Below, in pieces: positions 6,885 to 44,365 of a DNA stretch of 64,000 nucleotides. The position numbers were made by a program, and so were the translations under genes. Origin of the DNA: Micromonospora chokoriensis (GTDB taxonomy: Bacteria; Actinomycetota; Actinomycetes; Mycobacteriales; Micromonosporaceae); contig NZ_LT607409.1 of the NCBI RefSeq assembly GCF_900091505.1, positions 1,922,001-1,986,000 on the forward strand, given 5' to 3'. The notes below the pieces were generated by a model. It worked only from the letters and a program-made list of their open reading frames with translations, ran no database searches and was not told where the DNA came from. Within the stretch, counting starts at the first letter, position 1; each line of letters starts with the position of its first letter.

Positions 6885-6894
6885 CCCCGACCCT

Positions 6895-6954
6895 GTTGAT
6901 CAAGAGGTTTGCGTCAAGATTCGGCCGAACGATGACGCAAACCTCTTGATCAAC
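6895..6954. repeat. Perfect 22-bp-arm palindrome (family A, GTTGATCA ends); probable bidirectional terminator
   Basis: The left arm 6895-6916 (starting GTTGATCAAGAGG) and the right arm 6933-6954 are exact reverse complements. The 16-nt centre contains another palindrome, TTCGGCCGAA. It lies between the convergent livM and lipoprotein genes, so it can terminate both. Similar palindromes with TGATCA-type ends occur at 13125-13180 and 34388-34461. It has no run of T residues, so it is not a classical intrinsic terminator. Confidence 0.75.
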
Positions 6955-7005
6955 GGGGCTTGGGCGGCGGCCCCCCGTGTGGCCGCCACCCTCCCGTGGG
7001 ACGGG

Positions 7006-7827: not shown

Positions 7828-7893
7828 CGCATGTCTCTTTCTCGCTGCGTGGCTTCTGCCGATGACGATGTTGCGGACCATCACGGCGGTCCC

Positions 7894-7932
7894 GCTGCCG
7901 ATATGCTGCCGTCCGGCTGCCGGGCACTGCCG
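7894..7932. promoter_or_regulatory. SARP-type operator: GCTGCCG heptamer direct repeats
   Basis: Three exact copies of GCTGCCG start at 7894, 7905 and 7916, an 11-bp period (7-bp repeat plus 4-bp spacer). A fourth near-copy, ACTGCCG, starts at 7926. This spacing is what is known for AfsR/ActII-4/DnrI-type SARP operators. The array lies between the divergent lipoprotein and SARP genes. It could serve either promoter; GATGGT-like bases 8-10 bp to the left would suit the lipoprotein gene. Confidence 0.6.
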
Positions 7933-26954: not shown

Positions 26955-27791
26955 GTGGTCGACTTGGAAGCCGCGATCGGGTTCGTCGTGGCGCATGGGG
27001 ACGCGGTGGAACGTGCCCGCCTCTCCTGGCTCCGCAACGGCACCCCCGTGCCCGTCGAGTTGCTGGAGACGGCCGAGGTCGGCCAGTCACCGGACGGCGG
27101 TTGGCCGGCCACCTGGGGCGGCCCGGTCGCCTCGATCGACGCCACCTGTTTCCGGCTCGCCGAACTCGACGACCTGGGTGCCCTCGGCCGCCCCGCGGCC
27201 CGGCGCGCACTGGACTGGCTGGCGTCCCGGCAGCAGGCCGACGGCGGTTGGGAAGAGGACGCGTCGTTGGCCGACTCGGCACCGGAGTGGGCCCGGCCCG
27301 GCGACCCGGAGGCCGGGTTCCTCGTGTCCGCCAACGCCGGTTTCTGGCTCACCGTCGCCGGCCTGGATGCCCGAGCCTCGGGTCCGCTCGACCACCGGGT
27401 CGGTGGGGCGTACGCCGGGGTGGTGCAGGCGGCGGCCCACTCGCTCGCCGCGCGGCTGCGCCCGGACGGCAGCTGGCCGTCGTTCCTCGCCGCCGGCTGG
27501 CTGAGCGCGGCCGTACTGCACCGGCAGCAGATGTTCCAGGAGTCGGCACGCATCCAGGTGGTGCTCGTCGAGCGGATGCCGAAGATGTCCCCCGGCGACG
27601 TGGCGTGGTTGGCGGCCACGCTGCGCCGGGCCGGCGTCGACCCACAAGACTGGATCATGGCGCGGGCGCTGCACCGGCTGACCGAGACCCAACGCACCGA
27701 CGGCGGTTGGGAGAGCGACGACGGCCATCAGTTCGACGTGCACACCACGCTGGCCGCGATCCGCGCCGCCCGTCCCGCGCCGCCTGCCTGA
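26955..27791 (+). CDS. Alpha-alpha toroid (prenyltransferase/squalene-cyclase-like) repeat protein
   Basis: Protein of 278 aa with QW-like repeats: GQSPDGGWPATWGG, QQADGGWEED, RPDGSWPSF and QRTDGGWES. These spread over helical pairs as in the squalene cyclase/prenyltransferase toroid fold. It is less than half the length of a real cyclase and lacks a DxDD motif, so it is more likely a binding or structural protein than a terpene cyclase. The GTG at 26955 lies 7 nt after TAGCGT, implying a leaderless mRNA. The last nine codons are the first unit of a 28-bp tandem array that continues downstream. Confidence 0.7.
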   Translation: MVDLEAAIGFVVAHGDAVERARLSWLRNGTPVPVELLETAEVGQSPDGGWPATWGGPVASIDATCFRLAELDDLGALGRPAARRALDWLASRQQADGGWEEDASLADSAPEWARPGDPEAGFLVSANAGFWLTVAGLDARASGPLDHRVGGAYAGVVQAAAHSLAARLRPDGSWPSFLAAGWLSAAVLHRQQMFQESARIQVVLVERMPKMSPGDVAWLAATLRRAGVDPQDWIMARALHRLTETQRTDGGWESDDGHQFDVHTTLAAIRAARPAPPA

Positions 27792-28100
27792 CGCCGCCCT
27801 CGGCCCGCGCTGCCTGCCTGACGCCGCCCGTCCCGCGCCGCCTGCCTGACGCCGCCCTCGGCCCGCGCTGCCTGCCTGACGCCGCCCGTCCCGCGCCGCC
27901 TGCCTGACGCCGCCCGTCCCGCGCCGCCTGCCTGACGCCGCCCGTCCCGCGCCGCCTGCCTGACGCCGCCCGTCCCGCGCCGCCTGCCTGACGCCGCCCG
28001 TCCCGCGCCGCCTCCCTGACGCCGCCCGTCCCGCGCCGCCTGCCTGACGCCGCCCGTCCCGCGCTGCCTGCCTGACGCCGCCCTCGGCCCGCGCTGAGAC
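27765..28100. repeat. 28-bp tandem array (about 12 units) starting inside the end of the toroid-protein gene
   Basis: The unit begins GCCGCCCGTCCCGCGCCGCC and ends TGCCTGAC, including the gene's TGA stop in unit 1. Units 2 and 4 are 30-bp variants with CTCGGCCCGCGCTG. Units 5-11 are nearly identical, unit 9 has one G-to-C change, and unit 12 is truncated at 28100. Because 28 is not a multiple of 3, it produces long Arg/Ala/Gly-rich false reading frames on the minus strand. The gap 27792-28283 holds only this array, a palindrome and a hairpin. Confidence 0.9.
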
Positions 28101-44222: not shown

Positions 44223-44365
44223 CGCTTTCGAGCTGATGTCGTAGACGAATCATTCGCTGCCGCTGCCGCTGCCGCTGCCGCTGCCGCTGCCGCTGCCGCT
44301 GCCGCTGCCGCTGCCGCGGCGGCCGACGTGCCGCCCGATGTCACAAACGATTCAGCTCGAAAGCG
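44223..44365. repeat. Palindrome with (GCTGCC)x10 hexamer tract in its loop
   Basis: CGCTTTCGAGCTGA (44223-44236) is exactly inverted at 44352-44365, with weaker pairing further in. The 115-nt interior holds ten exact GCTGCC copies (44256-44315). Both strands read poly-Ala in one frame, but no real gene is seen. The gap 44025-44599 contains this, the diverged duplicate at 44138 and the family B palindrome. Confidence 0.75.

Follow-up and report, generated by a model that had tools for sequence, protein, structure and literature searches.

An 11-bp-period array of CGGCAGC-type repeats as the probable operator of a SARP regulator for a divergent lipoprotein gene in Micromonospora and related genera

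Results and Discussion

The analyzed window, i.e., the whole 64,000-nucleotide stretch of Micromonospora chokoriensis DNA, contains an array of heptameric units at an 11-bp period in the interval between a gene for a SARP regulator and a divergently oriented lipoprotein gene, and this array is likely the operator through which the neighbouring SARP acts on the lipoprotein promoter. Such an operator had been proposed from the sequence of this interval alone, and the proposal is now supported by conservation across genera. Binding by the SARP and activation of the lipoprotein gene are inferred from the arrangement of the sequence. The features under discussion are collected in Table 1.

Table 1. 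Features of the SARP-lipoprotein interval and its flanking genes (positions are those of the window)
Feature	Position	Strand	Remarks
SARP unit 1, GCTGCCG on + / CGGCAGC on -	7894..7900	-	exact; conserved
SARP unit 2, CGGCAGC on -	7905..7911	-	exact; conserved
SARP unit 3, CGGCAGC on -	7916..7922	-	exact; 7917-7922 in 62-65 of 65 intervals
SARP unit 4, degenerate, ACGGCGG on + / CCGCCGT on -	7883..7889	-	nearest the lipoprotein promoter
Possible fifth unit, ACTGCCG	7926..7932	-	10 bp from unit 3; weakly conserved
SARP gene, 573 aa	7970..9691	+	Trans_reg_C + BTAD, Pro-rich linker, hydrophobic helices, C-terminal HhH-like domain
Proposed -10 of SARP gene, TATGCT	7902..7907	+	between units 1 and 2, overlapping unit 2
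Proposed -10 of lipoprotein promoter, CAACAT on -	7868..7873	-	9 bp from unit 4
Divergent lipoprotein gene, 273 aa	7006..7827	-	lipobox-like LGGC (by eye)

Sequence and period of the array

The sequence-only reading had described three exact copies of GCTGCCG at period 11 plus a near-copy, all of which were found, the spacing of the near-copy being 10 bp rather than 11. Unit 4, which is in phase at 11 bp from unit 1, was absent from that reading; its position carries an exact in-phase CTGCCG in seven genomes of the genus, while an exact unit is present 11 bp from unit 3 in G046, G135 and G156. Unit 1 occupies the expected -35 region of the lipoprotein promoter. The array displays the direct repeats at 11 (or 22) bp by which SARP operators are recognized.

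The heptamer itself is frequent in the window (65 copies versus 33 expected, ten of them in one tandem array), as might be expected if the repeats had arisen by chance or from the composition of GC-rich DNA. A hexanucleotide array, CGCTGC, at 44255-44317 (10.5 copies) inflates this count. Because GCTGCCG alone is common in the window, the signal resides in the spacing and not in the heptamer. A period-11 triplet of any 7-mer occurs at this site alone within the 64 kb, in none of 60 Markov-1 random windows and in none of 20,000 shuffled versions of the 140-bp interval, and the array is kept across genera while its flanks drift. A chance origin of the array is excluded.

The regulator and the lipoprotein

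The SARP protein carries an N-terminal OmpR-type DNA-binding domain followed by a BTAD domain, the arrangement that defines SARP regulators, with Pfam matches to both (Trans_reg_C 3.5e-10; BTAD 1.2e-41) above their cut-offs, and its sequence matches AfsR (E 8e-51) and EmbR (5.3e-31). The C-terminal ATPase/LAL half of a SARP-LAL regulator was not found; the region past the BTAD domain holds HHH_3, a sub-threshold TPR-S match and hydrophobic helices. The HHH_3 match at the C-terminus is weak (4.1e-5, 24 bits, below the cut-off of 27), and hydropathy analysis places strongly hydrophobic stretches at about residues 343-376, 385-403 and 412-442. These helices probably span the membrane. A location of the HhH domain outside the cell, ComEA-like, was considered, as three helices would place it there; a hairpin-like first helix, with the HhH domain inside, fits the charges of the loops (WRRSWR positive, SSDSEEVTDAE negative), and the domain may lie on either side. 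An AlphaFold model of the C-terminal part (pLDDT 57.1 from four sequences) displays three long helices and was not relied on. Judged by the listings of the literature searches, none of the papers returned describes a SARP with this architecture.

The recognition helix, NVVQKYVAGLRR, is conserved across an alignment of 83 SARPs, i.e., 66 from Micromonospora (including that of L081, a locus without the array) and 17 others, bar Y/H at one position and single V/L, V/I and G/A changes. The same helix is present in 36 further SARPs of other genera, with Y/H and V/I/M changes, and A/S in L258, and it was found in none of the 22 own-genome paralogue helices shown. Residues T88 and R92 of AfsR, described as contacting bases in the excerpted account of its structure (PMC10936776), correspond to K68 and G72 of the present SARP, as mapped by hand from the alignment.

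The lipoprotein returned a weak match to NCBIfam lipo_SCO4651 (E 1.7e-5, 24.6 bits, cut-off 65), no Pfam match, and nothing usable among solved structures (best E 0.064), and its AlphaFold model (pLDDT 45.8 from two sequences) was not used. Neighbours of the locus, as judged by eye, include an amino-acid-type ABC transporter and a RecQ-like helicase, and an Rfam search gave no matches. A near-perfect long hairpin with TTGATCAAGAGGTTTGCGTCA arms (6891-6958; -51.1 kcal/mol, z -10.7) follows the ABC-transporter-like genes, and a 28-bp unit is repeated in tandem, in 11.3 copies, at 27764-28083.

Conservation within Micromonospora

When the SARP C-terminus was used as query (E up to 0.001), 83 of 151 genomes gave matches, many of them weak and confined to the HhH end. 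Fifty-three loci with strong matches were fetched along with the own locus; five further strong matches at contig ends or in fragments (G009, G010, G087, G143 and G155) were left out. The SARP N-terminus was present in 53 of the 54 fetched loci, and the lipoprotein gene was divergent in nearly all, mostly about 142 bp away, with a maximum of 193 bp. At locus L055 (G106) a 268-aa open frame contains the hydrophobic and HhH-like part, and neither the SARP DNA-binding part nor the array was found there. Locus L081 (G132) has lost the interval together with the array, and its lipoprotein, close to the SARP gene, is matched by its C-terminal part only; its SARP has the same helix type despite the loss of the array. 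A tandem pair of lipoprotein copies lies beside the array at L095 (G054).

Sixty-five distinct anchored intervals, with 14 further loci added, were compared column by column, without L055 (no DNA-binding part), L081 (interval deleted) and L052 (missed by one base of the anchor regex). Most columns between 7895 and 7911 are set by the anchor, those of unit 2 either fully or by half, so that the invariance of this segment is partly due to selection, whereas columns 7912-7922 and 7883-7889 are free. In these anchor-free columns, TCCG at 7912-7915 is present in 62, 61, 63 and 65 of the 65 intervals, and CTGCCG at 7917-7922 in 62 to 65; positions 2, 4, 5 and 7 of unit 4 are C, G, C and G in 65, 65, 63 and 62 intervals, respectively. 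The flanks drift among the same 65. Furthermore, 51 of 52 Micromonospora loci selected through the protein carry a pair of units at 11 bp, versus 0.12 expected.

Co-occurrence of the array and the SARP

The pattern RCTGCCGNTATGCTGCSG was found in 63 of 160 genomes of the genus, at one place each, and its reversed control in none. When these 160 genomes were scored for the SARP C-terminus (E up to 1e-15) and for the array, 60 had both, six the SARP only, three the array only and 91 neither (Fisher p 5e-33), i.e., 60 of the 66 SARP carriers possess the array. Three of the SARP-only genomes (G030, G145 and G073) hold one-base variants of the array, and the remaining ones are G132 and G106, described above, and G009, where the gene lies at a contig end. 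All three array-only genomes have a SARP N-terminus beside the array, one of them truncated (G156). At this last locus (L165) the SARP is matched over its first 79 residues only, next to an intact array that has five units in phase.

The array was likewise sought at related genes. An 11-bp unit pair was found upstream of none of the 20 own-genome SARP paralogues with a usable match, nor over 300 bp in any of the 23 own-genome paralogue rows scanned. Four SARP genes of Streptomyces and Nonomuraea (44-49% identity) have no array and other helices, one of them having a single unit. The unit pair was also absent (0/20) upstream of lipoprotein gene homologues (43-51% identity) from 20 genomes without the SARP, taken from a larger list, and no SARP was found in the 2.2-2.4 kb fetched upstream of any of them; for three (L276, L277 and L284) the start codon as projected is displaced by a few bases.

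The genome contains 25 places of SARP/BTAD similarity, this one included, and the repeats might be read by another regulator or by a sigma factor. This appears highly improbable, as the array co-occurs with this particular SARP, does not precede related lipoprotein genes in genomes without this SARP, and is not found in G106, where the DNA-binding part of the SARP is missing.

Conservation in other genera

The DNA pattern alone was found at 20 places outside Micromonospora, 17 of which lie just upstream of an orthologous SARP gene (52-71% identity in the N-terminus), the other three (L166, L169 and L195) having no such SARP downstream; the reversed control matched in five of 354 genomes. In the corresponding protein-selected test, 40 loci of other genera were taken from a longer list and 36 were left after removal of four without a SARP N-terminus. 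Among these 36, 33 carry an 11-bp unit pair within 220 bp (versus 0.07 expected) and 34 have a lipoprotein homologue upstream, whose identity is only 25-28% in three of these loci. The conservation of the repeats in orthologous intervals, on which the proposal had been made to depend beforehand, therefore holds in the genus and in other genera alike.

Several loci depart from this arrangement. L258 has no pair by regex, and by eye displays degenerate units with AGCTTC at 9 bp. In genus g42 the array, by eye, is split in two, one part lying 9 bp from a lipoprotein-side ATGCTG and the other holding TATGCT. Five loci of genus g17 (L173-L177) keep the SARP and the array; no lipoprotein was detected at these loci, and the leftward gene is secA-like by eye. 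In two species of genus g12 (L166 and L169, position 1501) a two-unit TTATG site lies upstream of a gene that resembles, by eye, that of signal peptidase I, and this site may have arisen by chance, given that the reversed control matches five genomes. The signal peptidase I-like gene of g12 and the secA-like gene of g17 hint at secretion genes.

Geometry of the lipoprotein promoter

Of the 65 Micromonospora intervals, 63 have a leftward hexamer of the form xAnnnT, as in the proposed -10 of the lipoprotein promoter, at 9 bp (47 intervals) or 10 bp (16) from unit 4, the exceptions being L073 and L112. This test fixes two bases only, and it locates unit 4 by counting from TATGCT, whether or not the unit itself is present; the hexamer also fits at 12 bp in 34 of the 65, through an overlapping GACGATG, and at the other spacings tested in 0-3. 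In other genera it is found at 9 bp in all 29 loci with TATGCTGC (1/29 at 10 and at 15 bp, none at other spacings) and in all six testable loci that have the array without TATGCTGC. Among the protein-selected loci of other genera, 35 of 36 have a -10-like hexamer at 9 bp. TATGCT was also tried as the leftward -10 (CAGCAT on the minus strand) and was rejected, as this choice would leave 7 bp to the upstream unit, and as some loci retain the leftward hexamer at 9 bp although they have no TATGCTGC.

At SARP sites, according to the excerpted published accounts, the 3' repeat is separated from the -10 by 8 bp and the 5' repeat covers the -35 region. The distance observed here is 9 bp (in some 10) versus the published 8, for predicted promoters and with an offset that depends on the heptamer start chosen. 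On the basis of the hexamer spacing and the published geometry, the array is interpreted as a SARP box serving the lipoprotein gene. Four units of the CGGCAGC type (three of them perfect), 11 bp apart, lie on one helix face and point at the lipoprotein gene, and SARP protomers would bind side by side on them. A pair of protomers on units 1 and 4 would cover the -35 region, 9 bp upstream of the lipoprotein -10 and close to where AfsR sits when it recruits RNA polymerase, and the SARP would probably activate the lipoprotein gene in this manner.

The promoter of the SARP gene and self-repression

Of the SARP genes selected through the protein, 50 of 52 in Micromonospora and 29 of 36 in other genera have TATGCTGC in the 220 bp upstream. 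It lies 67-70 bp from the start in 43 of the 50 Micromonospora genes that have it, and 58-96 bp from the start in other genera. The near-invariant TATGCT may be the -10 of the SARP gene itself; a sigma-70 consensus scan returned no sites, and TATGCT has no -35 partner of the TTGACA type. Since this putative -10 lies inside the array, occupancy should limit SARP transcription: a bound array would block the -10, and less SARP would be transcribed. Self-repression is plausible, with the chances for and against it about even. As a consequence of overlap it cannot be general, because TATGCTGC is absent from the g19 and g22 loci, which keep the array.

The array might also be bound by the SARP for the control of its own gene only, with the lipoprotein gene a bystander, a reading favoured by the constant 67-70 bp to most Micromonospora SARP starts and by the persistence of the array in g17, where no lipoprotein was detected. 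Autoregulation alone is unlikely, however: the units point leftwards, the spacing to the leftward -10 is kept in other genera, including loci without TATGCTGC, and a lipoprotein homologue lies upstream in nearly all loci of other genera, at an identity of only 25-28% in three of them. An operator serving the lipoprotein promoter is accordingly the preferred reading.

Comparison with known SARP operators

The operators of ActII-ORF4 and DnrI have a TCGAG-type heptamer, different from the CGGCAGC found here. Three heptameric repeats are found at some sites, as here, according to the excerpted text of PMC10972967. PimR, SanG and PolR, as far as the excerpted accounts describe them, resemble the present case in their CGGCA-type heptamers, 4-bp spacers and location in a divergent interval, for PimR the pimR-pimM interval of Streptomyces natalensis. 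The same excerpts (PMC3367932, PMC5930380) report that PimR protects TGGCAAGaaagCGGCAGGtgttCGGCAAG in its divergent interval, with a second site at 10-bp spacing, that its footprint holds CGGCAGG, and that the consensus of PimR, SanG and PolR is CGGCAAG. The present CGGCAGC differs from that consensus at two positions and from the footprinted heptamer at one. GCTGCCG had been put forward as a new type of SARP target, a claim that has to be withdrawn, as the minus-strand heptamer is close to that of the PimR footprint and the operator is close to the CGGCA kind. The PimR operator also resembles the present one in that it has three heptamers, a further set spaced at 10 bp, and one target only; in contrast, PimR, in these excerpts, is the SARP-LAL of an antibiotic cluster with a site clear of the -35 region, whereas here the target is a lipoprotein and the units reach the -35 region.

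AfsR on the afsS promoter, in the excerpted PMC10936776, likewise has 11-bp units and an operator over the -35 just upstream of the -10, and its DNA-binding and BTAD domains are homologous to those of the present SARP (E 8e-51). Its repeats, CGTT(T/C)ATCGNN in another excerpted account, differ from CGGCAGC, and it possesses NOD and TPR domains where the present SARP has hydrophobic helices and an HhH-like domain. The novelty lies in the target of the operator and in the architecture of its regulator.

Regulon and significance

A wider lipoprotein regulon, which had also been anticipated, was not seen, as motif scans of the own genome and of 160 genomes of the genus stayed at or below the reversed control. 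When up to two mismatches were allowed, the three-unit pattern gave three other places in the own genome (versus four for the reversed control); the exact two-unit pattern gave three (versus seven). One of the mismatch places, L227, was inspected and lies inside a 607-aa ORF; the two other mismatch places and the three exact two-unit places were counted only. Among the 160 genomes, the exact three-unit pattern with free spacers was found in 54 and lay off-locus in two (G080 and G003), versus eight genomes and 14 places for the reversed control.

SARPs are best known for switching antibiotic clusters. A wider scenario, offered tentatively and with the balance somewhat against it, is that of a membrane-anchored one-component SARP, present in many Micromonospora and related genera outside any recognized antibiotic cluster, which might sense the envelope via its helices and HhH-like domain and drive one lipoprotein gene through a single bidirectional operator with its own -10 inside the binding array, so that one occupancy would turn the target on and the regulator down. 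Unlike in the best-known role, the SARP is tied here to a lipoprotein and is probably membrane-bound. As the operator is constant across genera, its binding rule, spacing and target are directly testable, and about a hundred loci provide a natural alignment that pairs a CGGCA-type SARP box with its recognition helix.
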